From positions 1 through 20,175 of IMG/VR virus record IMGVR_UViG_3300042691_008255: a stretch of 20,175 nucleotides of DNA. The stretch is one strand, 5' to 3'. Source of the DNA: a virus. Positions 1 to 20,175 of the stretch are shown piece after piece (position 1 is the first letter of the stretch; every line of letters begins with the position of its first letter). The notes under the pieces are model-generated. The model saw nothing but the letters and a program-made list of their open reading frames with translations. It was not told the DNA's origin and searched no databases. The position numbers and the translations under genes were made by a program.

Positions 1-3000
1 AATGTCCGATGTTTAGACGGCACAAAGGTGCACGAAGTCTACCCACTCTATAATCAGGAGCAGTCCAAGATGCAAGATAGTTTAATTTACGCCATACTGC
101 CGCTTGTTCATCCCGCGATCCGATGTGAACTGTAAATCCGAAACTAACATCTCTCTCGTAAGATCCATACAAGTAAACAGGATTTCCAGAACCCATATAC
201 ATTTGAGGATTCCAACTTGGTTTATGGTTATCAGTTATACTATCAAATGTTGCTCTAAATACTATTGCTTCAGCTGCATTGGATCCATTAGCAGCACCCC
301 CACCATTCAAATTTACGGTTTGAAAATAAAATGTTATTAAATCTTTTGTTCCCGGTAAATCATTATTTGAATTTGGTCCGGTTTCATAAACAAAATCTTC
401 TGTTATTCTTCCAGATTTCAAACGTTTGAAATCAACTATATTTATTCTATCACCCCTAAACTCGTATTCATCACCTTGTTTTTTTACAGCTTTACCATCA
501 GAATACTTTATATTACTTTTATATGGTTTACTTCTATCCACCCCAACTTTTCCAGGATTACCAAAACCAAATTTCTTTTCAAGATTGTTAGCTTTGTAAT
601 CTGCAATAGTTGGATCAGTAGAGAATTTTTTATATTTTTCACCTTCAATATCAGAACGGAAATCATTGTAGTCGTGTGAACGAGCGCCATCTCCTCTTGC
701 AACTTTTTTCAACTTATTATAGGCAAGAGTTGAATACTGTTTTATTGGATTTGCAATGGCATCATCTTCTCCTGCAGGTGGTTCTGAAACAATAGATTTT
801 GTTTTAACTGGTTGAGTTGTTGGTTGACCAGTTCCATCAATATCACCAGCAACATTAGCACGACCTCTATCTAAAATAGAAATGTAATTTGGATCAAAAG
901 TAGTTCTACTGTTAAGCAAATTAACAACTTTTGGCTGAACATACGGTCCGGATGAACCACTCGGAACTGTTTGTGATTCCTTTCCAGAAAATTTTGGACC
1001 GTTTTCTATTAGATAAGATAGTGCAGTTAGAACACCGTCAAATGTATTTCCAGAACTATTATAGTTTTCGTTTAATTTCGATCCGTATGTATTATCAACT
1101 ACTTCATCGCCACTTATAGTAGTTTTTGGTCCAAACCATGTTTCAAATTTTGCTGTTGATGGATAGTTTGGTCTAAAACTCACACCAGATGTATCATAAA
1201 ATTTCATAAATGGATGTGATGCCCTGCGTATAGTAGTTGTTCCAGCAGAAGTAGTTCCGGAATTTGGTCCACCCTTTCCAGATAATCTGTATATTTTTCC
1301 ATCTTCACGTTTTTTTTCTATTCCACTTCTTACAGTTGAATCAATCGATTCATTCATTGGTATAAATGAACCAGGTAACATTTCTGCCATTAAAGCAATC
1401 AATCTGTTATATTTGTATGCAGAATATATGTTAGCTACATTTTTTATTACCGATGAGTATAGACCATCGCCATTTGCAGCCCGTCTCGGAAATGACATAA
1501 CACTTTCTTTATCGCCTGTATCAGCTGTATTCATTCTATTAACAACATATTCATAGGCATCAAATGGTGCTTTATTATCAAGAACATCAACTGAATCACC
1601 ATGGCGTATACGAAGTTCTGATCTATTTCTGTTTGTATTATCTTCTATTGATTTAAGCAAAGAAGACTGATTATACATACGAGTTTTTGCTTGAGGTGCA
1701 TCTAAACCACTTGGTGTGTCCCAACCATTTAATGTATCAACCAATGGGTTGTTTCCATATAATTGATCTTGCAGTTTAACCCATCTTTGACCTTTACCGG
1801 ATTCCAACCAAGTTTTTATTCTTTGCTCATCTGCTTTGTTTATTTCCGAGAATTGATCCGAGAATCCACCGCCTGCATTAAAAGTTATAGCAGAGCCAGA
1901 TACAGCAAGTATATTACCCCACAAGTTGTTTTTGGCGGAATCTTTGACCTGTATACCCCTTAATATAAATGGATCTATTCTTAAACCACTACCCTGTGTT
2001 GAGCCAGGAACTATTTGTAATTTTTTATATTGTAAATCTAATTGTTTATTGTTTATAGAATATGATGCAAGATAACTACCATCAAGTTGATTATCTTTCA
2101 TTGTTCTTTCATATTTTTTATTGTATGCACCTGCAGTCTTTGGTAGAGTAGTTCTATATTGACCGTATGTATCATTCAATGTTATATTTGGAACTTGATT
2201 TTCTAACGAAGCAAGTGTTCCATTTCTCGCCCAAGGACGTTTTCCTAGAGACAATGGTGCAAATTCTTCTCCTCTAACCGTATTTACACCAGAAGATGCA
2301 CGAGTGGTTGCAAGTGTAAGTCTTCCAGATAAATCCAAATTGTAAGTTAATGTTGGGTTTATTATTGGATAAAGTGTTCCATCATTCAATGTCATGCTTG
2401 GCATAAAACCAGCTCTTTGAATTGGTGTAAATCCAAAAAAGTTTGTAACTGGTTTATCAGATGCCCCAATTACTGATAATTTATTTTGTCCACTTTCGGT
2501 AGAAAGTATAGAATATCCGGTAGCATAATTTGTTACAGTTTTGTCTGTGTAGAATGTTTGAAATCCTCTACCCGCTTGTGTTGTATTATTTTTTTGTTGA
2601 ACATCAAGATATTGTTTACCGGTTGGAGTTCTATACAAACCAAAATAATTATTACTTGGTGCATCTGCACGTTTTCCATTCCAATCAAATGTAGAAGATT
2701 CTGTTGAGTATTCCGTCTGTGGTCTACTACTACCTTTACGCATTATATCTATTGTAAATCCGGCTTGGTTATCATCTGGAAAATAATTTATACCAGTTGG
2801 TCTTAATCCGATAAAACCAAATCGTGATGTTTCATTGATATATTCTGTTTGTGGATTTCCAGCACCTTTTGGCATAATATCCAAAGTAAAACCGGTTTGG
2901 TTATCATTTGGAAAATAATCCAATTTTGGTGGTCTTGAATTTGCCTTAAAGCCATATTCTGATGAATCCGTTTCATATTCTGTTCCAGGTCTACTGCTTC

Positions 3001-6000
3001 CCTTTGCCATAATATCCAAAGTGAAACCAGTTTGGTTATCATCTGGAAAGAAACTTTGTAAACCAGGTCTACCGCCTTTGAAAACAAATATAGATGATTC
3101 AGTAGCGTATTCTGTTCCCGGTAAACCTTCATTTCTTTTAATATCCATCGTAAAACCGGTCTGGTTTGTATCTTGGAAGAAATTGATTACCGATTCAATA
3201 GGTTCACCTGGACGCCCACCTTTGAATGTATAAAAAGAACTCTCGTGAAAATACTCTGTTCCAGCAGGTTTACTTGTTCCCTTTGGTTGTATATTGAGTG
3301 TAAATCCTGTTTGATTTAATTTTTCTTTATCAAAGTAATCCGTTCCTGCTTTGGGGAATTTTCCAGGAAAAGTAAACTCTGATGAGTCTTCTACATATTT
3401 ACTATCGTATATTTCAGCAAGACGATGGAAACCAATCGTTGTAAATTTACCCCTCAAATCAAAATAGTTTACTTGTGGGGATTCATCACGACTACCATCC
3501 CAATCAAATATAGATATTTCTTCTACATATTTACTATCGTATATTTCAGCAAGACGATGGAAACCTGCACTCGTTACTTTCTTGTTAATATCAAAAAAGT
3601 TTACTTCTGGAGAATCACCACGTTTTCCGTTCCAATCAAATTCGGAAGATTCTGGAATATATTTTGTATCACGAATTTGTGCGAATGTATGGAATCCTGT
3701 GTTTGTAAAGTTTGCAGGTAAGTCAAAATAATTTACAGCAGGTGCACTTTGTCTTCCCCCATCCCAATCAAAACGAGAAGATTCTTTTACATATTTTGAA
3801 TCATATTCTTGAGCAAATGTGTGAAATCCAGTAGTTGTATGTGTCTTTTGTAAATCAAAATAATTGATTGCAGGAGATTCTGACCTTGCACCATCCCAAT
3901 CAAATTCAGAAGAATCTTTGATATATTTTGATTCTTTGAATACTGGAAATGTATGGAATCCTACTGATGTAAATTTATTCAGCAAATCAAAATAATTTAC
4001 AGCAGGTGCCTGTTGTTTATTTCCATCAAAATCAAATCGCGATGAATCTTTGATATACTTTGAATCATTCAATGCATGAAATGTATGAAAACCGACTGTT
4101 GTAAATTGATTTTGTAAATCGAAGTAATTTGTTGCTGGTGAATCTTGTTTTACTGTATTCCATGTGAATACTGATGATTCTTTTTTATATTTCGATTCCA
4201 AAAATGGAACGAATGTATCAAATCCAGATAATACATTTTGTGTTGATATATCCAAATAATTTACAAACGGAGCATCTTCTTTGACACCAACCCAAGTAAA
4301 TCTTGATGAATCTGTGACATACTTTGTATCATATAGTTCGGCAAATGAATGAAATCCATCGGTAGAGTTTATAGTTGTTACCAAATCAAAATAGTTTATA
4401 GTTTTAGCATTAACTCTGTTTCCTGACCAAACAAATTGTGATGAATTTTTTATGTATTTTGTATCAAATTTTTGTGCAAAAGGATGAAATCCCTCAGATG
4501 TAAATTGTTTGAATTGATCCAGATAATTAACCGATGGTGCATTTTCAATAGAATTTCCAACAAAAGTAAATCTAGATGCATCCAAAACATATTTTGAATC
4601 CATGAATCCTGCAAAATTATGAAAACCTGCAGTAGATACCGTGCCGGATTGATCAAAATAATTTACAAAAGGTGCCTGTTGTTTATTACCATCATAATCA
4701 AATATAGAAGAATCTGGAATATATTTTGATTGTCCTTGTGAAGCAAACTTTGTAAAACCAGATGTTGTATTTAAGAATCCAACATCGAAATAGTTTACAG
4801 TTGGTGCACCCAATCTATTTCCTTGCCATCCTAAAAATGATGTTTCTGTTTTATATTCTGTTATTTGTGGTTGTGTAAAAATTGTAAAACCACCAAGAGT
4901 GTTGTTGTTATTTCCATCAAAGAAATTTACACCCGTTATTTTGGAAAAATCAAATTGTGACGTATTTGGCTGGAACAACGATTCTGCTGGATCAACAAAT
5001 GTTTGGAATCCTCTACCATTTGTATCTGCAAATGCATTCGTAAATGGACCATCATCAGAACCTCCTGTCCATACAAATTGAGAGAATCCAATATATTTAC
5101 TATCACCAAGTTGTTGTCTTTGATTGAATCCCAAAGCAAACTGATTTGAAAAGAAATTTACTTCCTGTAAACCCAAGGCAGAATACAAAGAATCTTCTGG
5201 ATTTTCAAGTCTTCCACCAGGAATGGTTGGTGTTATACCATCTAAATTTAATTGACTTCTATCCACATCATGTATGGTTTGACCAGAATAACGAATTGGA
5301 CCTTTGTCATCAGTTTCAATCATTGTTGCCAATTCAGAAGTTCCAACGAATCGTATTGGGGTAGAATCTATATTAAATTCGCTAATACCTTCCGAGTGAA
5401 TAGTTCCTTGATCAATTCTTAAAACAGTTGTATCTGGATTTACAACTATACCCTCTTGAATTGTATCGGTAATTATGTTTGGCGATTGTTCAACTCTGCT
5501 AAAACTAAGCGGTGGTATTATAGGTTCAATATCTGGAATTGTTATATTATCAACCGCATCATTTACATTCTTCGATATATTTACTGTATTTTCAGTTCTA
5601 TCAAAAAATTGTTGAGGTCTTGTTATTACTATCTGTGGATTTGTTATATTGCCAATAGGTGACAATATATTTTTATTTATTGCAACCGCTTGATCCTCTC
5701 TGTTAAAAGATTGTTCAGGAACATTTATATCAATATCAGGATTTACAATGTTGTCTGATGAATCATTTGTATTTTTGAATATATCAGGAGAAGTATCTTC
5801 TCTTTCAAATGTCTGTTGTGGTATGTTTATTTCTGTATCGGATCTGTTATTATTTTCACCAGGATTAGTTGGATTTATAGGTGTATCTGATTCATTAAGT
5901 CTACTTGTAAATCTTGTTTGATTTATATTTGAAAATCTAGATTCAATTTGATCCAGTCCTATTCCAGAAGCAAGTGGCGAGATTGCTTCGCCAATAGAAG

Positions 6001-6457
6001 GCGATAATTCTGATATACTGTTTACCAAAACACTTTCGATTGGTAATTGAACTATATCATCGAATTTGGTTAAAGGCAATCTATCCTCTAACTGAACTCT
6101 TTTGTCTGATGGTATTACTATATCATCAAGATTTGATGATTCCAATTTACTAACAAGATCTATACTGTTCGGTTTTTTTGTGTTATCAAGATTAGTTGTC
6201 CCCAATCGTTTTGTGACATCACTTGGTTTTGGGTTTTTTATATCATCAAGTTTTGTTTTTGATAATTGACTTGTAAGACTTACAACTTTTGGTTTTTTTA
6301 TTTTTGGAACGTCTTTGTATAGTTCATCTGTAATTGGTTGTTGTGTGGCAAAATTTTTGTCACTAGTAGCAGATGAGGCATCGGGAGTATTTTTACCTTC
6401 CTTTGAAACCTCACTTCTATATTTCGATAAATCAGATTTTAAGTCTACTAATGACAT
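1..6457 (-). CDS. Giant repeat-rich baseplate/tail structural protein (partial, 3' end beyond window)
   Basis: The frame is open for 2152 codons from an ATG at 6457 and reaches base 2 with no stop, so the C-terminus lies outside the window. An AGGA Shine-Dalgarno-like site sits 10 nt upstream. Domains in order: residues 53-134, four 20-residue repeats around a LDDIxxP motif; about 202-338, four 34-residue repeats (NPxIxIxxPxQxFxRxE); about 453-1305, roughly nineteen 44-residue repeats (SKYxxxSSxFxWxG, NYFD, GFHTF); 1305 to about 2040, non-repetitive and of unknown role. From about 2040, a region with W-x-P, a YxYGSYER-type turn, VSFGFTV, a WRKLNYL helix and RLxIG resembles the tube-like module of T4-type baseplate proteins such as gp48/gp54 (family recognition from memory). 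The gene follows the tape measure directly, where baseplate hub and tube-initiation genes sit in T4-like phages. A virion role is likely; the exact gp48/gp54 assignment is uncertain, and the repeat domains match nothing I recognise. Confidence 0.72.
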   Translation of the reverse strand, partial: MSLVDLKSDLSKYRSEVSKEGKNTPDASSATSDKNFATQQPITDELYKDVPKIKKPKVVSLTSQLSKTKLDDIKNPKPSDVTKRLGTTNLDNTKKPNSIDLVSKLESSNLDDIVIPSDKRVQLEDRLPLTKFDDIVQLPIESVLVNSISELSPSIGEAISPLASGIGLDQIESRFSNINQTRFTSRLNESDTPINPTNPGENNNRSDTEINIPQQTFEREDTSPDIFKNTNDSSDNIVNPDIDINVPEQSFNREDQAVAINKNILSPIGNITNPQIVITRPQQFFDRTENTVNISKNVNDAVDNITIPDIEPIIPPLSFSRVEQSPNIITDTIQEGIVVNPDTTVLRIDQGTIHSEGISEFNIDSTPIRFVGTSELATMIETDDKGPIRYSGQTIHDVDRSQLNLDGITPTIPGGRLENPEDSLYSALGLQEVNFFSNQFALGFNQRQQLGDSKYIGFSQFVWTGGSDDGPFTNAFADTNGRGFQTFVDPAESLFQPNTSQFDFSKITGVNFFDGNNNNTLGGFTIFTQPQITEYKTETSFLGWQGNRLGAPTVNYFDVGFLNTTSGFTKFASQGQSKYIPDSSIFDYDGNKQQAPFVNYFDQSGTVSTAGFHNFAGFMDSKYVLDASRFTFVGNSIENAPSVNYLDQFKQFTSEGFHPFAQKFDTKYIKNSSQFVWSGNRVNAKTINYFDLVTTINSTDGFHSFAELYDTKYVTDSSRFTWVGVKEDAPFVNYLDISTQNVLSGFDTFVPFLESKYKKESSVFTWNTVKQDSPATNYFDLQNQFTTVGFHTFHALNDSKYIKDSSRFDFDGNKQQAPAVNYFDLLNKFTSVGFHTFPVFKESKYIKDSSEFDWDGARSESPAINYFDLQKTHTTTGFHTFAQEYDSKYVKESSRFDWDGGRQSAPAVNYFDLPANFTNTGFHTFAQIRDTKYIPESSEFDWNGKRGDSPEVNFFDINKKVTSAGFHRLAEIYDSKYVEEISIFDWDGSRDESPQVNYFDLRGKFTTIGFHRLAEIYDSKYVEDSSEFTFPGKFPKAGTDYFDKEKLNQTGFTLNIQPKGTSKPAGTEYFHESSFYTFKGGRPGEPIESVINFFQDTNQTGFTMDIKRNEGLPGTEYATESSIFVFKGGRPGLQSFFPDDNQTGFTLDIMAKGSSRPGTEYETDSSEYGFKANSRPPKLDYFPNDNQTGFTLDIMPKGAGNPQTEYINETSRFGFIGLRPTGINYFPDDNQAGFTIDIMRKGSSRPQTEYSTESSTFDWNGKRADAPSNNYFGLYRTPTGKQYLDVQQKNNTTQAGRGFQTFYTDKTVTNYATGYSILSTESGQNKLSVIGASDKPVTNFFGFTPIQRAGFMPSMTLNDGTLYPIINPTLTYNLDLSGRLTLATTRASSGVNTVRGEEFAPLSLGKRPWARNGTLASLENQVPNITLNDTYGQYRTTLPKTAGAYNKKYERTMKDNQLDGSYLASYSINNKQLDLQYKKLQIVPGSTQGSGLRIDPFILRGIQVKDSAKNNLWGNILAVSGSAITFNAGGGFSDQFSEINKADEQRIKTWLESGKGQRWVKLQDQLYGNNPLVDTLNGWDTPSGLDAPQAKTRMYNQSSLLKSIEDNTNRNRSELRIRHGDSVDVLDNKAPFDAYEYVVNRMNTADTGDKESVMSFPRRAANGDGLYSSVIKNVANIYSAYKYNRLIALMAEMLPGSFIPMNESIDSTVRSGIEKKREDGKIYRLSGKGGPNSGTTSAGTTTIRRASHPFMKFYDTSGVSFRPNYPSTAKFETWFGPKTTISGDEVVDNTYGSKLNENYNSSGNTFDGVLTALSYLIENGPKFSGKESQTVPSGSSGPYVQPKVVNLLNSRTTFDPNYISILDRGRANVAGDIDGTGQPTTQPVKTKSIVSEPPAGEDDAIANPIKQYSTLAYNKLKKVARGDGARSHDYNDFRSDIEGEKYKKFSTDPTIADYKANNLEKKFGFGNPGKVGVDRSKPYKSNIKYSDGKAVKKQGDEYEFRGDRINIVDFKRLKSGRITEDFVYETGPNSNNDLPGTKDLITFYFQTVNLNGGGAANGSNAAEAIVFRATFDSITDNHKPSWNPQMYMGSGNPVYLYGSYERDVSFGFTVHIGSRDEQAAVWRKLNYLASWTAPDYRVGRLRAPLCRLNIGH
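2544..5101 (-). repeat. About 19 tandem 132-nt (44-residue) coding repeats
   Basis: The NYFD-coding segment recurs at nearly constant 132-nt spacing (for example around 3722, 3854, 3986 and 4118). The unit reads roughly SKYxxDSSxFDWxGxR, then about three residues, PxVNYFDL, a five-residue spacer, TxxGFHTFAxxxD. Units near 2700-3370 are a subfamily with TEYxTESS, FPDDNQTGFT and DIMxKG in place of the SKY and GFHTF forms. The outermost units are the most diverged. The frame is kept throughout, so the array is under coding selection. Confidence 0.85.
3387..3565 (-). repeat. Perfect 47-nt direct repeat within the 44-residue array
   Basis: Bases 3387-3433 and 3519-3565 are identical over 47 nt and are spaced by exactly one 132-nt unit. 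They encode the segment around GFHRLAEIYDSKYVE in two neighbouring units. Other adjacent units differ at many synonymous positions, so this pair looks recently duplicated or gene-converted. Confidence 0.85.
5446..5854 (-). repeat. Four tandem 102-nt (34-residue) coding repeats
   Basis: Consecutive units start at 5752, 5650 and 5548, exactly 102 nt apart, with a partly diverged unit before them. The shared pattern is NIxNPxIxI, two residues, PxQxFxRxE, then a variable IxKN segment. These lie in the N-terminal third of the giant protein and do not resemble its 44-residue repeats. Confidence 0.75.
6056..6301 (-). repeat. Four short N-terminal 60-nt (20-residue) coding repeats
   Basis: Units begin at 6301, 6241, 6181 and 6121. 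The first three are exactly 20 residues and the fourth 22. Each contains a K/I-P near its start, an L-x-x-x-L stretch, then T/S-x-L-D-D(N). They may form short amphipathic helices near the N-terminus of the giant protein; that structural reading is inference. Confidence 0.7.
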
Positions 6458-12602: not shown

Positions 12603-15041
12603 TTAAGCACCAGGAAACGCAGCACCAGTAGACTGAATGTTGAAATCAAGAATGATAAATTCAGCAGTCTTGGCAGGTTGTAAGAACAACTGACCATAAA
12701 GGATGTTGCGGTCAATAATATCCGGAGTATTGTTACTTTCATCCATGATAACACGGAAGGCATAAAGACCTTGACGTTGTTGGATGGATTCAAGATATGG
12801 AGTAACAATGTTCAAGAATCTTGAGCGAGTTTGTGAAGTGTTTTGTTCAAACACAAGGTATCTTGTGGAAGAAGCAATAAACTTCTTAGCAGCAATCAAG
12901 AGACGGCGAACATTGATACGGTCAAGAGCAGATGGACGACCTTGAAGTGTCTTCTGACCCCATACACATACTCCTGTTGATGGGAATACTGCAATCGGAT
13001 TTATTCTTGCCTCATAGAGAGTATCACGTTCTGCATGAGTCAATCTGGATTTAACTTCAACAACTTCTGTTAAACCACCACGATTCAAACCAGCAGGAGC
13101 GAACCATTCAGCGGCAACACGGTCATTGAAAGCAATAACACCAGGAAGAACAACAGATGGTGGAACCCATATAGGTTTGTTTCTATCGAAATCAAGAATC
13201 TTAACCCAAGGATAATAAGTAGCAGCATAGTTACTGTCAAATCCTTCTGTTGTTGCAACAGCAGTTGCGATGTTATCATTTATACCAACAGAATCCATTA
13301 CATAGAATGCATCACCGCGATCCTCACAAACATCTTTAGCATAATTTGTTATTGCAGAATGTAATGAGTGAAGAACACCAGGTGTTGCAATCATGTTAAT
13401 ATCAAATTCATCTGCATTTGAAATTGTGTCAAGTGCCTTCTTGTAAGAAGTATATCCATCAGCTGTTGAATTTGATATATCAAATCCTTGTGTGTTACCA
13501 GCTTCAATGTATGTTCCCAATTTCTTTTGAAGATGTGGTTTGTGACCATCAAATCCACCTTGAAGCGGGATCATAAATTTACGAGAATCGAGTGCAGTGT
13601 TTGTAGTTAAATCTATTGATGAACTGTAAGCAGTTGCACTTGATGGGAAACTTGCACCAGGATTTTGTTGATAATCGCCCAAATAGAAATCTGCATTAGA
13701 TCCAGTTGTTTGATTTGCAGTTATAGGTAATGGACGCAAATAATTAAAGTTATCAGTATTGTTGAAATCATAACTGAATCCCCAATATACTCGTCTATTA
13801 TATGCACCACCGGCTGTTTGGTCTGTCACAAATGTAGCAGCAGCAGGTTGTGTGAAATCTTTTGGTATCGGTGACTGTAAAGCACGGAATCCAAAAGGAA
13901 CGAGATTTGGAGATACACCACCGTTTGTAACGGCTTCTGTTACTTCAACACGAACATATTTTGATTTATTAGAATAATCACCGTTTACAACAACTTTGCC
14001 TTCATCTGTAATTGTGATAAATCTATCGCCGATTACTCTTGCAATAAATTTAGGTGAATTTGGATCCAAATTACACTTAAATGATTCAATCACATTTGGA
14101 CGCAAATCTTCATCTTCATATGTGAAAGGTGTTGTTGGTAATTTAGATTGATCAACAAATCTAACAACAACATCGAAATCACCATATTCAGAACCTGCGA
14201 TTGTTCCAGCAGGACGAATGTTTGCAATACCAACTTTTACTTCATAGTTTGAATGAATACCATGAGAAATTGTATGGAACTTAAACAAATTAGTTGTTTG
14301 TGCACCAACTCGTTGTGATGTTATCCAAGGAGTAGAAGCAGCCAAATAATCTGTTGTAAAATCCCAAGGAGAACCAGCAGAGCCAGTTTCAATTAAAATT
14401 GAAGTTGCTGCATCAAGTGCAAGTGAAGCAGATGCCTCTTTCTTAAAGTTTACATAATTGTAAACAGCGTGTGTTCCGTATGGGTTGTAACCATACAAAT
14501 CACCAATATATGCAGAAGATTCTGGATTGATAGATGAACTGAAAGCAGTTCCGTTTTCACTAATAGCATTTGTAAATGAAGAAACATCAGTTGTGAAAGA
14601 ACCCGAAATGGTAATTACAAAACTACCACTATTGTTAGAATTAACTGTTGTTTTTTCAAACAAAGATGTTGCATCAGAATTAGTTACAACGAATGTAGGA
14701 TGTAAGAATGAAATCAATTTCTTACCCCATGAACCAGTTGCAACAAGAGCAATAGGATGTTTTAGTGAATATCCACCGGATCCAAGAACACGAACTATTG
14801 TTGCACTTCCAGCATTGTTAAGATAATTCTTTGCTGTATATGGTAAATATGACTGTTCGTATGTGTTACCGAAATGGGTGACGAAATCACCAAAACTATT
14901 AACTACCGTTGGGACAAATGCAGGTCCCTTTAACGTGGGTCCTAAAAGAGCAGCACCAATGTTACCTATTCCTTGTGGAAGGAATGACAGGTCCATCTCA
15001 TTAGTAAACACTCCAGGACTTACAATTCTTTCATTAGCCAC
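12603..15041 (-). CDS. 18: Tail sheath protein (gp18-like)
   Basis: The contractile sheath subunit, 812 residues against about 659 in T4. The N-terminus (S-P-G-V-F-T-N-E-M-D, then I-G-A-A-L-L-G-P-T-L-K-G-P and a F-G-D-F-V-T-H-F-G segment) is the sheath linker/strand-exchange region. The C-terminal domain from about residue 680 has G-V-C-V-W-G-Q-K-T-L, R-I-N-V-R-R-L-L, L-E-S-I-Q-Q-R-Q-G-L-Y-A-F and a final Q-P-A-K-T-A-E-F-I strand, all hallmark sheath segments that form the inner conserved core. The long, serine- and asparagine-rich middle (about residues 130-530) is larger than in T4 and probably forms surface-exposed domains. The start is GTG with GGAG 7 nt upstream. A hairpin terminator follows the stop. 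Assignment is secure from motifs and from the tube gene next door. Confidence 0.93.
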   Translation of the reverse strand: MANERIVSPGVFTNEMDLSFLPQGIGNIGAALLGPTLKGPAFVPTVVNSFGDFVTHFGNTYEQSYLPYTAKNYLNNAGSATIVRVLGSGGYSLKHPIALVATGSWGKKLISFLHPTFVVTNSDATSLFEKTTVNSNNSGSFVITISGSFTTDVSSFTNAISENGTAFSSSINPESSAYIGDLYGYNPYGTHAVYNYVNFKKEASASLALDAATSILIETGSAGSPWDFTTDYLAASTPWITSQRVGAQTTNLFKFHTISHGIHSNYEVKVGIANIRPAGTIAGSEYGDFDVVVRFVDQSKLPTTPFTYEDEDLRPNVIESFKCNLDPNSPKFIARVIGDRFITITDEGKVVVNGDYSNKSKYVRVEVTEAVTNGGVSPNLVPFGFRALQSPIPKDFTQPAAATFVTDQTAGGAYNRRVYWGFSYDFNNTDNFNYLRPLPITANQTTGSNADFYLGDYQQNPGASFPSSATAYSSSIDLTTNTALDSRKFMIPLQGGFDGHKPHLQKKLGTYIEAGNTQGFDISNSTADGYTSYKKALDTISNADEFDINMIATPGVLHSLHSAITNYAKDVCEDRGDAFYVMDSVGINDNIATAVATTEGFDSNYAATYYPWVKILDFDRNKPIWVPPSVVLPGVIAFNDRVAAEWFAPAGLNRGGLTEVVEVKSRLTHAERDTLYEARINPIAVFPSTGVCVWGQKTLQGRPSALDRINVRRLLIAAKKFIASSTRYLVFEQNTSQTRSRFLNIVTPYLESIQQRQGLYAFRVIMDESNNTPDIIDRNILYGQLFLQPAKTAEFIILDFNIQSTGAAFPGA

Positions 15042-15475: not shown

Positions 15476-16540
15476 TTAATCAGTTTCGTCTATTTCAAAT
15501 GTATAAACATCGGGAGACCTAGATAGTGATATATCTACCATCTGAGCAACTCTGCGTCTAAATGCCGCCAATGAATCAGATCCATCATCATTCTGATTTC
15601 GGAATCTACCTCTATCTGCATCAGCTTGATCAGTGCCTCTTAATCTTGCATTCAACTCATTAGTGGTTCCATAATAGTTTACTTCATCGGGATTCATCAT
15701 AGAGTTAATATCACCAAACATCTCGGAAACAAATCTGATTTTATTTGCACTAATAACTCTCTTTGTTGTTGTATCGGCACCAACATCCTTTGGTATCAGA
15801 TAACCATGAACTGTTAATTGAAATGAAGAACGAACAACACGGTCTTGACCGGTTGTATTATTATCTTCTATACCCATTGAATCCATGTATGTTGAAAATT
15901 TGTAATAATTCTTATCACCAAATGCCTGCCCATTGAAATGAACGAATTGTTCGAGAATATGGTTTAGTTGATTTTGATATTCGCACCAAACTATAAAGTC
16001 ATACGTAATATCAACAAAATCTGGCATAGGAGTTAGATAATACTCATACGATGGTTTTCTTTCATATTGAGTTGTAAATCTATCATAAGGTGTCATTCTG
16101 TTATATCTATGTTGCATTACATAATAAAGTTGTTTTGTTGTTGCAACTTTATTTCTACGCATTTCTTGTTTTATAGCAACATTAGATCTTCTAAACGTTA
16201 TCAATGGTATTATTGTTTTTCCTTTTTTATCTTTCAAGAATCCATCTTTTTGTATAGATGCCCACTTTTCAGAATTTGCATATATCACCGGAACAACAAT
16301 AGCTTCACCATTGTCTTCTACACGAAGCATCATTTTTTGATCAATAAAAGATTTTACAGAAAAATCTATATCGTAAAGTGTAATGGAAACGCTACGTGTT
16401 TTATCTTTATCTCTACGAGTTTGTAATTGTCTTCCTTTACCTAAATCTTGTCTTTGATTTTGTTCTGAACGAACATCGTCAATAAAAGAATCACGAGTTC
16501 TTCTTATTGGCGGTTTTCTATATTTTGCAGAATTAACCAT
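15476..16540 (-). CDS. 15: Tail terminator / sheath stabilising protein (gp15-like)
   Basis: 354 residues against about 272 in T4 gp15, which caps the tail tube and sheath and provides the head-binding surface. Matching features are V-P-V-I-Y-A-N-S-E-K-W near residue 85, I-I-P-L-I-T-F-R-R-S and then P-Y-D-R-F-T-T. These are followed by T-P-M-P-D-F-V-D-I-T-Y-D-F-I-V-W-C-E-Y, the Q-L-N-H-I-L-E-Q-F helix and Q-L-T-V-H-G-Y-L-I-P-K. This order of segments parallels gp15. The basic N-terminal 50 residues and an Asp/Arg-rich C-terminus are extensions of unknown role. The ATG overlaps the upstream stop by one base (TAATG), implying translational coupling; no strong ribosome site is seen. Assignment is by remembered motifs plus position after the neck genes. 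Confidence 0.72.
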   Translation of the reverse strand: MVNSAKYRKPPIRRTRDSFIDDVRSEQNQRQDLGKGRQLQTRRDKDKTRSVSITLYDIDFSVKSFIDQKMMLRVEDNGEAIVVPVIYANSEKWASIQKDGFLKDKKGKTIIPLITFRRSNVAIKQEMRRNKVATTKQLYYVMQHRYNRMTPYDRFTTQYERKPSYEYYLTPMPDFVDITYDFIVWCEYQNQLNHILEQFVHFNGQAFGDKNYYKFSTYMDSMGIEDNNTTGQDRVVRSSFQLTVHGYLIPKDVGADTTTKRVISANKIRFVSEMFGDINSMMNPDEVNYYGTTNELNARLRGTDQADADRGRFRNQNDDGSDSLAAFRRRVAQMVDISLSRSPDVYTFEIDETD

Positions 16541-17064
16541 TATATGTTACTCGGAATATCATTATGATCAGTTGTTATTGCTGGTCTAAATTCTTCTATA
16601 TGTATTCTTGAACGTCTTGTTAAGTGCGTTGTTGCAACTATGGAAACATTGTGACCCCATCTTTCAGTAGCAAAAGAATAGTCAGGATTCTTTCCACCAA
16701 AGAATTGATTTTCTTGAACACCATCTATTTCCCACCACTCACCATTGTATTCTATAACATCACCCACTTCAACAAAAATTTCAACATCTTTCAAAAATTC
16801 TCTAATAAAGGCAAATGTGGCTGCCTGTTGATAATCTTGACCAAATTCAGTTCCTTCGTAAGTTTGTGCCTGATAGTCTATGAGTGCAGGAACTTTGACT
16901 GGACTATGATATACTTTCTTATCAGATTCATTATACAAATTTGTTTTTGTATTTTCCAAAGAAAGTTTATAGACAGCAACTTCTGTATCTATTATATCTG
17001 CCACCAATTCCATATTGAACTTGTGAACAAGATTTGCGTCTCTCTGTCCGTGAAATAATGGCAT
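16540..17064 (-). CDS. 14: Neck / head-tail connector protein (gp14-like)
   Basis: 174 residues, shorter than T4 gp14 (256). The start M-P-L-F-H-G-Q-R-D-A-N-L-V is followed by a helix and a strand-rich core. That core has A-T-F-A-F-I-R-E-F-L, V-E-V-G-D-V-I-E-Y-N-G-E-W-W-E-I-D and then E-N-Q-F-F-G-G-K-N-P-D-Y-S-F. This GDxIxY...EID...GKxPxY layout is one I associate with neck proteins of T4-type phages. Such proteins join the DNA-filled head to the tail terminator. The ATG has AGGATA just upstream, and the gap to the gp13-like gene is 4 nt. Its stop overlaps the start of the gp15-like gene. The 13-14-15 order is the T4 order, which supports the call; motif support alone is moderate. Confidence 0.6.
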   Translation of the reverse strand: MPLFHGQRDANLVHKFNMELVADIIDTEVAVYKLSLENTKTNLYNESDKKVYHSPVKVPALIDYQAQTYEGTEFGQDYQQAATFAFIREFLKDVEIFVEVGDVIEYNGEWWEIDGVQENQFFGGKNPDYSFATERWGHNVSIVATTHLTRRSRIHIEEFRPAITTDHNDIPSNI

Positions 17065-17068
17065 ATTA

Positions 17069-19726
17069 TTATCCTATAAATACTGCTAAAGGTGTTCCGT
17101 TGAGACTTACCGATAATGCCTCCGTTTCCATTCTTTTTGCTTCTAATAATTTAGCACGAGTCATTGTATCTAACATGGTTCTTAATTGATCAACTAATAC
17201 TTGTTTTTCCGTTCCTGCGGCTGAAATTAAATCTGCAGAGTTTAGGGTTGCTTCTGAATTACCGATTGGCATTGAACCATATTTACCTCTGACATATCCC
17301 AACATTTCTTTTACAAGTGCAAGACCGAAAGAATATATCCAAGTTCTTCCGGCAGAATTTATATTTGAATATACCATGTGATCGTATGGAGCATTTGACA
17401 TATCAGACACAGTTCCATTTGCGTATTTCAATGGATTACTTCTTTCTTCTTTTACAATATATTCAATCCATAGTTTGAAATCTCTTGTTGGGACTGGAAA
17501 TATACGGAGTTCATTATTTATCAATTCAAAACTAAAAGCAGACTTACGCATCATATCGTTAAATTCTATTGCCTGAACTCGGAGTAAATCGGCATACATG
17601 GGCATCAACATAAATGATACACCGGTTGAATATGCTCCAAATCCGAAGGTGTCTAACATTGCCTGATTACCTAAATATGGATCATAAAAACGCATTGAAG
17701 CCGGTGGTGAATAATGATGAACTCTTTTTATTTCTATTGAACCACTTGGAGCTTTTATATCACGAATGAGTGTATCTAAATCATATTTTTGTTTACCAAC
17801 ATTTATATCTATTGATGACGAATAGAAATTTATATTACCGTTTGTAAATGTCTCGCTACCATATTCGGTTGCAAGTTGAATTAGAGGTCCCATACCGGTG
17901 GATATATTTCTATGTGTAAGATTTGAACCAGTTGATGATCCGATTATACTTAATAAATTTTGTTGGATGTTAAATTGATTTACATGGTAAGAATACTCGT
18001 ATATTGCTTCCTCAAAACAAGTATAGAAATTAACATCTTTCAATTCTACCGTTACCATTGGATAACCTAATCTTTTTGCACACCAATCTGCAAAAGCATC
18101 TGCATCTGATTGAAATTCTGGATCATTATCAAATGTTCCAAATGGCGTGCTTCCGGTTGTAAAACTTGAAGAACCCGGCCAAATAGGAAACTTTGTCATC
18201 AATATCTTTGAACGAATCATGGTATCTACTATGCGTTTCAAATCTTCAATTAGTGCCTGTTTTTCCGTAGAAGCCGCACTTAATAGATCCGCCGAGTTCA
18301 ATGTTGTTTCTGCCGCACCAATAGGCATACTTCCATATTTACCCCTAATATACCCAAGTTTTTCTTTGGATAATGCTAATGTATATTTGAATATCCATTG
18401 TCTACCAACAGAATTTATATCGGAATAGTCTATTCTACTACCACTATTGCTAACTTCATGGATATTATATTGAACATTATATTGATCAACATAGTTGGAG
18501 TATTCCATCACAGACTGTTCAAATAGAGCATAGAATGTAGATGGTTGGATTTCAACCGATTGCATTGGATAACCCAATTCTCTGGAGCACCAGTCTGCAA
18601 CATTATCTGCATCAGTTTGGAAATCGGTATCACTATCGTAATAACCGAATGGAGTGCTACCGGTGGCAAAACTTGAAGAACCTGGCCAATTTGGAAAGTT
18701 TTTCATAAGAATTTTGGAACGAATCATTATGTCTACTAATCGTTTTAATTCTTCCATCAATGCCTGTTTCTCGGTTGTTCCGGCAGAAATCAAATCCGCA
18801 GAATTTAATGATGTCTCGGCAAGACCGATTGGCATGGATGGGAATTTTCCTCTGATATATCCAAGTTTTTCTTTTGCAGATGCCAGTGTATATTTGAATA
18901 CCCATTGACGACCAACTGTATTTATATCTGTATATTGTATTCTATTACTACTGTTATCTATTAAGTCATAGATATTGTTTTCATTGTTATACTGATCAAC
19001 ATAATTGGAGTATTCCATCACTGCATTTTCAAATAGGGCATAAAATGTTGTTGCTTGCATTTCAACTTTTTGTAATGGATAACCCAATTCTTTTGCACAC
19101 CAGTCTGCAACATTATCGGCATCAGCTCGAAAATCAGTATCATTATCATAGTAACCAAACGGAGTGCTACCAGTAGCAAAACTACTTGAACCAGGCCATA
19201 TTGGAAAATTAGTCATAAGAATTTTTGAACGTATCATAATATCAACGATGCGTTTCAGTTCTTCGATTAGTGCCTGTTTTTCAGTAGTTGCTGCTGAAAG
19301 TAAATCTGCAGCATTAAGAGTAGTTTCACCATTTGGAATTGGGATAGAACCATATTTCCCTCTGATATATCCTAAATTTTCTTTGGCCAATGCTAAAGTG
19401 TATTTGAATACCCATTGTCTACCAACAGGATTTATATCAGCATATTCTATTCTTCCATCTGGATCTTGTGTTAAAGCATGAACATCATTTTGAGCATTGT
19501 ATTGATCAACATGATTTGAGTATTCCATTACAGCTTCTTCAAAACACGCATAAAAATTTGATGCCTGTAATTCTACATCCATGAGTGGATAACCAAGTCT
19601 TCTAGCACACCAATCCGCAACATTATCAGCATCAGTTTGAAAACTTGCTTCAGAATCGTAAAATCCGAATGGAGTGCTACCTGTTGTAAAACTACTTGAA
19701 CCAGGCCATATTGGAATGTCTGTCAT
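17069..19726 (-). CDS. 13: Neck protein (gp13-like) with four tandem modules
   Basis: An 885-residue protein built from four in-frame copies of one module starting at residues 1, 171, 341 and 510. Each copy opens M-T/K-x-x-P-x-W-P-G-S-S-S-F, continues with a helical part (A-D-x-x-A-D-W-C and E-Y-S-x-x-V), and copies 1-3 end in G-R-Q-W-x-F-K-Y-T-L-A, L-G-Y-I-R-G-K and M-I-R-S-K-I-L. Only the last copy (376 residues) carries a central domain of about 190 residues (I-E-I-K-R-V-H-H-Y, F-M-L-M-P-M-Y-A-D-L, R-I-F-P-V-P), the arrangement expected of a complete neck protein. T4 gp13 is about 309 residues. The gene starts directly after the phoH stop (TAAATG), with GAGAAG as probable ribosome site. 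No convincing ribosome sites precede the internal Met codons, so one long chain is expected. The gp13 call relies on motif recall and T4-like synteny. Confidence 0.68.
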   Translation of the reverse strand: MTDIPIWPGSSSFTTGSTPFGFYDSEASFQTDADNVADWCARRLGYPLMDVELQASNFYACFEEAVMEYSNHVDQYNAQNDVHALTQDPDGRIEYADINPVGRQWVFKYTLALAKENLGYIRGKYGSIPIPNGETTLNAADLLSAATTEKQALIEELKRIVDIMIRSKILMTNFPIWPGSSSFATGSTPFGYYDNDTDFRADADNVADWCAKELGYPLQKVEMQATTFYALFENAVMEYSNYVDQYNNENNIYDLIDNSSNRIQYTDINTVGRQWVFKYTLASAKEKLGYIRGKFPSMPIGLAETSLNSADLISAGTTEKQALMEELKRLVDIMIRSKILMKNFPNWPGSSSFATGSTPFGYYDSDTDFQTDADNVADWCSRELGYPMQSVEIQPSTFYALFEQSVMEYSNYVDQYNVQYNIHEVSNSGSRIDYSDINSVGRQWIFKYTLALSKEKLGYIRGKYGSMPIGAAETTLNSADLLSAASTEKQALIEDLKRIVDTMIRSKILMTKFPIWPGSSSFTTGSTPFGTFDNDPEFQSDADAFADWCAKRLGYPMVTVELKDVNFYTCFEEAIYEYSYHVNQFNIQQNLLSIIGSSTGSNLTHRNISTGMGPLIQLATEYGSETFTNGNINFYSSSIDINVGKQKYDLDTLIRDIKAPSGSIEIKRVHHYSPPASMRFYDPYLGNQAMLDTFGFGAYSTGVSFMLMPMYADLLRVQAIEFNDMMRKSAFSFELINNELRIFPVPTRDFKLWIEYIVKEERSNPLKYANGTVSDMSNAPYDHMVYSNINSAGRTWIYSFGLALVKEMLGYVRGKYGSMPIGNSEATLNSADLISAAGTEKQVLVDQLRTMLDTMTRAKLLEAKRMETEALSVSLNGTPLAVFIG
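18200..19726 (-). repeat. Three 507-510-nt tandem neck-module repeats
   Basis: Units begin at 19726, 19216 and 18706 (510 nt apart); the fourth, longer unit begins at 18199 after 507 nt. The Met codon and P-x-W-P-G-S-S-S motif recur at every junction, consistent with whole-gene duplications fused by loss of the stop and C-terminal tail. Residue identity between the first three units is high by eye. Confidence 0.9.
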
Positions 19727-20175
19727 TTACTTCTCGGTTTTATTTTCTTCAAAATACTTTAATATATCATCAACAATAGGATGACGATGGTTTGTTTTTA
19801 ATTCGTAAACCCCCAATCCTTGTATCTTATCTCTCATATTAAATAAATATGGCAAACCAGAATCTTTTTTCTGTTTTAGGTCAATTTGTGATATATCACC
19901 AGTTAGCATCATCTTTGAATTGATACCAAGACGAGATAATATCATTTCCATTTGTGCCTTAGTTACATTCTGTGATTCATCAACTACTACACATGCATTC
20001 ACAAATGTTCTACCACGAAGAAAACTTATAGGAGCAATTTCTATCTTATCTTCCGCCATTAACTTTTCAATTTTCTCTTTACTATAAAGCATACACATAT
20101 TTGCGTGTATAGGAGCTACCCAAGGATCCATTTTTTCTTTTATATTACCAGGCAAAAATCCCAAGTCTTCGTTTG
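19727..20175 (-). CDS. phoH: PhoH-like ATPase, C-terminal part (5' end beyond window)
   Basis: 149 codons are visible; the frame is open to the window edge (N-E-D-L-G-F-L-P-G-N), so the gene is cut and the TTG at 20164 is not its start. Family features present are D-L-G-F-L-P-G-N-I-K-E-K-M-D-P-W, P-I-S-F-L-R-G-R-T-F, the Walker B-type strand V-V-V-D-E-S-Q-N, T-G-D-I-S-Q-I-D-L and the final N-H-R-H-P-I-V-D-D-I-L. The Walker A loop would lie upstream and is not seen. PhoH proteins are P-loop ATPases common in phages, often in marine T4-like genomes. Their role in infection is unsettled; RNA metabolism has been suggested. The stop abuts the neck gene ATG, so the two are probably cotranscribed. 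Another copy of ATATTTAT occurs inside this gene at 19843-19850, 117 nt before the neck start. Confidence 0.92.
   Translation of the reverse strand, partial: NEDLGFLPGNIKEKMDPWVAPIHANMCMLYSKEKIEKLMAEDKIEIAPISFLRGRTFVNACVVVDESQNVTKAQMEMILSRLGINSKMMLTGDISQIDLKQKKDSGLPYLFNMRDKIQGLGVYELKTNHRHPIVDDILKYFEENKTEK

Follow-up and report, generated by a model that had tools for sequence, protein, structure and literature searches.

A selected, in-frame chain of four T4 gp13-type neck modules in a T4-like virus of bacteria

The window analyzed here, i.e., the whole 20,175-base record of a T4-like virus of bacteria with its structural genes on the minus strand, encodes a known type of neck protein in an unusual form that is real and under selection: three short modules precede one complete module in a single reading frame (Table 1). 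The neck adaptor belongs to the conserved symmetry-matching rings of tailed phages, and its subunits normally carry one module each. The modules described here appear to derive from two neck lineages, as judged from their sequences, and the neck of this virus is probably decorated or rebuilt in a previously undescribed way.

Table 1. Positions of the neck protein gene, its parts and the adjoining genes in the window
Feature	Position	Strand	Basis or remark
Four-module T4 gp13-type neck protein (head-tail adaptor Ad2) gene, 885 codons	17069..19726	-	frame open from 19726 to 17069
Module 1, 170 aa, bundle-only, residues 1-170	19217..19726	-	nearest type-B single-copy neck proteins
Module 2, 170 aa, bundle-only, residues 171-340	18707..19216	-	in the tree pairs with L002 module 2 (100/98)
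Module 3, 169 aa, bundle-only, residues 341-509	18200..18706	-	in the tree pairs with L002 module 3 (97/71)
Module 4, complete 376-aa neck protein and stop codon, residues 510-885	17069..18199	-	type-A lineage
Central region (~180 aa), module 4 only, about module residues 91-272	17384..17929	-	short/complete alignment; limits approximate
C-terminal arm, module 4 only, ends TPLAVFIG	17072..17143	-	compare T4 gp13 end PPFGILVG
Adaptor loop, module 1	19310..19354	-	T4 gp13 alignment; limits inferred
Adaptor loop, module 2	18800..18844	-	T4 gp13 alignment; limits inferred
Adaptor loop, module 3	18293..18337	-	T4 gp13 alignment; limits inferred
Adaptor loop, module 4 (complete)	17237..17281	-	T4 gp13 match; limits inferred
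PhoH-like gene, directly upstream (C-terminal part listed)	19727..20164	-	Pfam PF02562, E=2e-42
174-aa protein in gp14 (head closure) position, downstream	16540..17064	-	gene order as in T4 and Mel-JY01

Identity and surroundings of the chain

The gene repeats in register with spacings of 507, 510 and 510 nt, and every junction in the chain reads K-I-L-M-x-[NK]-F-P-x-W-P-G-S-S-S, so that the Met codon and the PxWPGSSS motif are present at each junction, as the initial annotation had claimed. The DNA pattern of the junction was found three times in the window and never in 100 shuffles. The DNA identity among the module copies was 65-79% and the between-module dS was 1.3-1.6, with frames and lengths intact, which points to old, diverged copies and not to a loop made by the assembler. 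The junctions also recurred in independent contigs: L003 (dataset 3300032050) spans those between modules 2 and 3 and between modules 3 and 4, and differs from the window by one base and no gaps over 4,189 nt (99.976% identity), and L002 (3300042691) is colinear with the window along its whole 7,286 nt at 88.9% identity and carries the same four modules. The assembly artefact that the initial annotation had named as a possible refutation was therefore rejected.

The whole chain matched phrog_211 'head-tail adaptor Ad2' in four stretches (E=3e-42), and in a PDB search T4 gp13 was the sole convincing match for the chain, for the short modules and for the complete module (E~1e-6). A profile of the complete module aligned with T4 gp13 by hhalign over 254 columns (E=1.9e-6), and Foldseek on the poor AlphaFold model of this module (mean pLDDT 50) ranked T4 gp13 first (E=6e-6), with a low TM-score. 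The assignment to the T4-type neck proteins was thus sustained. The AlphaFold model of the 885-aa chain (mean pLDDT 33) was unusable for placing the modules; helices recurred in it four per short module, at low confidence. The phrog_211 profile is 976 positions long and the window-type neck proteins match only about positions 690-969 of it; some members of this family may carry long N-terminal extensions.

The T4 gp13 subunit comprises a four-helix bundle (domain I, residues 3-51 and 239-300), which constitutes the ring-forming core, a swing domain (domain II) and a fibritin-binding domain (domain III); gp14 is bound by the loop 266-279, and the portal by the C-terminal arm 301-308 (PMC12270204). 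The T4 gp13 matches of the short modules were confined to T4 residues 10-67 and 244-297, and on this alignment the short modules are devoid of the swing domain, of the fibritin-binding domain and of the portal-binding arm, so that in essence they would correspond to domain I, adaptor loop included. The central region found only in module 4 sits where T4 gp13 has its swing and fibritin-binding domains, in agreement with the proposal that the short copies lack a central domain. Window protein and T4 gp13 are homologous by sequence and share a split bundle with a central insertion and a similar C-terminal end, although the latter is a short resemblance only, and it is missing in the short modules. 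T4 gp13 is one 309-aa module, whereas the window chain adds three bundle-only modules ahead of the complete one; in addition, the window protein has a conserved N-terminal arm of ~25 aa, which carries the PxWPGSSS motif and was not seen in T4 gp13.

The order of genes on the minus strand is PhoH, neck, 174 aa, 354 aa (gp15 position), 103 aa, sheath and tube, and the T4 gp13 gene likewise precedes genes in the gp14 and gp15 positions. The Microcystis phage Mel-JY01 has the same order (PhoH, neck, 174-aa, gp15-position, 103-aa, sheath, tube), and PhoH also adjoins the neck gene in the single-copy relatives. Compared by profile, the 174-aa protein and T4 gp14 did not match. The neck protein of Mel-JY01 is 60% identical to that of the window, and those of the single-copy relatives on IMG/VR contigs are 76-87% identical; Mel-JY01 and many of these contigs have one neck module, mostly of 376-388 aa, versus four in the window. 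The window also encodes a baseplate protein, a tape-measure-like protein and an open protein of 2,152 aa (2-6457, minus strand). The latter contains tandem repeats of ~44 aa at about 2721-4130 (F-D-[WF]-[DN]-G-x-[RK]...N-Y-F-D, units of 132-135 nt, 70-80% alike), which indicates that tandem module growth in this virus is not confined to the neck gene. The tail sheath (12603-15041, minus strand) is 812 aa long, as is that of Mel-JY01, and matches the 496-position phrog_23 end to end, so that it contains a large insertion.

Module number, origin and selection

The initial annotation had proposed a survey of homologues for module number, and this survey revealed real variation, with 1, 4 and at least 7 modules seen. 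In L004 (3300047545) seven modules are visible, six short and one complete, and the contig starts with the codons K-I-L before a Met, which is the ending of a module elsewhere, so that, on this sequence, the array very probably has at least eight modules. Nearly all other relatives, among the loci fetched, have a single copy, mostly of 376-388 aa. Scans of IMG/VR with three junction DNA patterns, together with an alignment-based scan and a scan with the L004 modules, found arrays only in L002, L003 and L004 (for the first scan and the alignment-based one, in the best 80 matches, among the matches listed). No neck match was found in L164 and L166, L167 proved to be a divergent single-copy neck gene, and the search of genome contigs gave a distant sole match, in a Prochlorococcus record. 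Apparent relic modules upstream of the gene in single-copy relatives were only the end of PhoH, and in Flavobacterium phage immuto a gene located before the neck gene, considered as a possible stand-alone short module, encodes an unrelated protein. In L133 (1795-2935) and L135 (241-1390) the single-copy neck gene lies in two frames with a break near residue 180 in both, i.e., a shared frameshift or error.

A tree built on the bundle region placed all of the 12 short modules together in a single clade (100/100). The complete modules from the three genotypes (window, L002 and L004) made up a second clade (100/99), which lies inside the type-A single-copy proteins. The short clade joined the type-B single-copy proteins, with a support of 85/80 in the careful tree and 93 in the quick tree. 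The N-terminal half of module 1 showed 92% aa identity to L094 versus 68% to the complete module at the end of its own chain, and module 4 showed 76-87% aa identity to single-copy relatives of 376-386 aa and 93-100% to its counterparts at the end of the L002 and L003 chains. Constraining short and complete modules into one clade cost 36 log-likelihood units, with a borderline p-AU of 0.050. The in-frame quadruplication that had been proposed thus holds insofar as four in-register modules share one frame, but not as a simple copying of one gene, since short and complete modules appear to belong to different neck lineages. In the simplest history, the array would have arisen once, by the joining of a neck gene of the divergent lineage, deprived of its central domain and amplified, in frame ahead of the resident complete gene, and its length would then have been altered by recombination between the ~510-nt repeats; modules 1-5 of L004 would represent a later local expansion, if the events followed this order.

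When the window was compared with L002, the dN/dS values were 0.081, 0.090, 0.051 and 0.070 for modules 1 to 4. This purifying selection on each module suggests that the short modules are expressed and used, and, together with the absence of Shine-Dalgarno-like sequences ahead of the internal ATGs, it contradicts the idea that only the last module matters. The dS values for the same modules were uneven (0.20, 0.68, 1.79 and 0.56), as might be expected if single modules had been exchanged, which suggests module-wise recombination between viruses.

We then compared the placement of the changes along the tree in the short modules with that in the complete and single proteins, with the regions taken from the T4 structure. 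Changes in the gp14-binding loop accounted for 22 of 159 in the short modules and for 26 of 462 in the complete and single proteins, a normalised ratio of 2.46 (Fisher p=0.0017, which is a guide only, given that the test was devised after the alignment had been seen); in a sliding-block control, 4 of 157 positions, the true loop included, were at least as enriched as the loop. Changes in the short modules were also enriched at the end of helix 6 (2.05) and in helix 2 (1.88), and depleted in helices 1, 5 and 6 (0.47-0.57). The positions that separate almost all short modules from almost all single proteins lie mostly at the ends of helices 2 and 6 (74, 158, 159, 161 and 165), which in T4 gp13 form the portal-facing end (PMC12270204). 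These results suggest that the axial contact surfaces have been relaxed and the helices held. The T4 gp14-contact residues I262, L271 and I277 (module I121, I130 and L137) are, nevertheless, invariant in 12 of 12 short modules, although about half of all columns are invariant, so that counts of T4 contact residues are uninformative.

Possible arrangements of the modules in the neck

The gene product would be one chain of ~98 kDa, with three bundle-only copies followed by the complete copy. Of the two possibilities that the initial annotation had raised, an altered subunit stoichiometry or a collar/whisker-like decoration, our evidence is closer to the second: we lean towards a normal ring of complete modules with the extra bundles as a collar, an arrangement to which we assign about an even chance. 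The complete module would build the usual 12-fold ring between the portal and gp14, docked via its C-terminal arm, and the short bundles would be tethered helical beads that pack laterally about the neck or next to it; each subunit would contribute three of them to a protein belt or collar, which for a dodecameric ring would give about 36 extra bundles per virion. Bundles that keep their fold and side surfaces and lose the axial contacts to gp14 and the portal fit such a peripheral position. Moreover, the gp14-position protein, which is 89-95% identical between multi-module and nearer single-module viruses (93-94% to the nearest single-module viruses and 93-95% to the other multi-module ones), has undergone no special change in the multi-module viruses, as expected for a protein whose partner ring has stayed the same. 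Against a collar stand the three invariant gp14-contact positions and the borderline AU test, and the two AlphaFold models give the placement no structural support.

In a different arrangement, which we consider rather unlikely, each module would occupy one of the 12 positions of a pseudo-symmetric ring, so that three four-module chains would complete it (4 x 3 = 12), with covalent tethers in place of the lost swing-domain contacts and only three portal-docking arms left. The constant module spacing of 169-170 aa, the occurrence of four modules in the same order in two diverged viruses, the ring-forming role of the bundle in T4 gp13 (PMC12270204) and the precedent of T5 pb6, which forms a trimeric pseudo-hexameric ring (PMC5717097), are in favor of this, and the relaxation of the loop could alternatively come from modules specialised for positions in such a ring. 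However, the short modules are relatively relaxed in the gp14-binding loop and the portal-facing ends, the portal arm would be missing from 9 of the 12 positions, the gp14-position protein is unaltered, and the swing domain that the short modules lack is the main contact between neighbouring gp13 subunits in T4 (PMC12270204). L004 would be compatible with it only if its array had exactly 12 modules. It is a long shot that the number of modules is matched to the 12-fold symmetry of the neck, with three chains of four here and one chain of twelve in an L004-like virus; if true, a single polypeptide would build a whole virus ring. Processing, or an internal start at the junction Met, could instead release a free complete module for the ring and leave the short modules separate. 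An ATG is indeed available at every junction, but this is improbable, because the short modules are under selection as strong as that on the complete one, the codons ahead of each ATG are conserved helix coding sequence, and the internal ATGs lack a Shine-Dalgarno-like sequence such as the GGAGATA of the sheath and tube genes, although this last argument is weak, as the start of the neck gene itself also lacks one. The copy number does vary between relatives, and the array contigs other than the window start within the array or at its border, as might be predicted for an assembly artefact or for a tandem expansion that is selectively neutral and short-lived; such an origin is contradicted by between-module dS values above 1 with intact frames, by the dN/dS of 0.05-0.09, by the module order common to two viruses and by the same junctions in other contigs, and we regard it as highly implausible.

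Full-text searches of open-access literature retrieved no description of a neck adaptor with tandem modules. The T5 tail tube protein pb6 is a phage ring protein in which a module has likewise been duplicated and fused in one chain; its fold is unrelated, the domain that forms the ring is retained in both copies, and for pb6 the effect on stoichiometry has been proven (PMC5717097). The T4-type neck of the Agrobacterium phage Milano lacks whiskers and is surrounded by a large protein collar, as the neck of the present virus might be, but the Milano collar consists of a separate beta-rich protein in four 15-subunit rings and not of copies of the neck adaptor (PMC10491603). The array described here suggests that a collar could be built from the ring protein's own copies, and the variant has a testable structural consequence. 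Selected chains of 1, 4 and very probably at least 8 modules would represent a natural experiment on the evolution of ring stoichiometry, symmetry mismatch and neck decoration.
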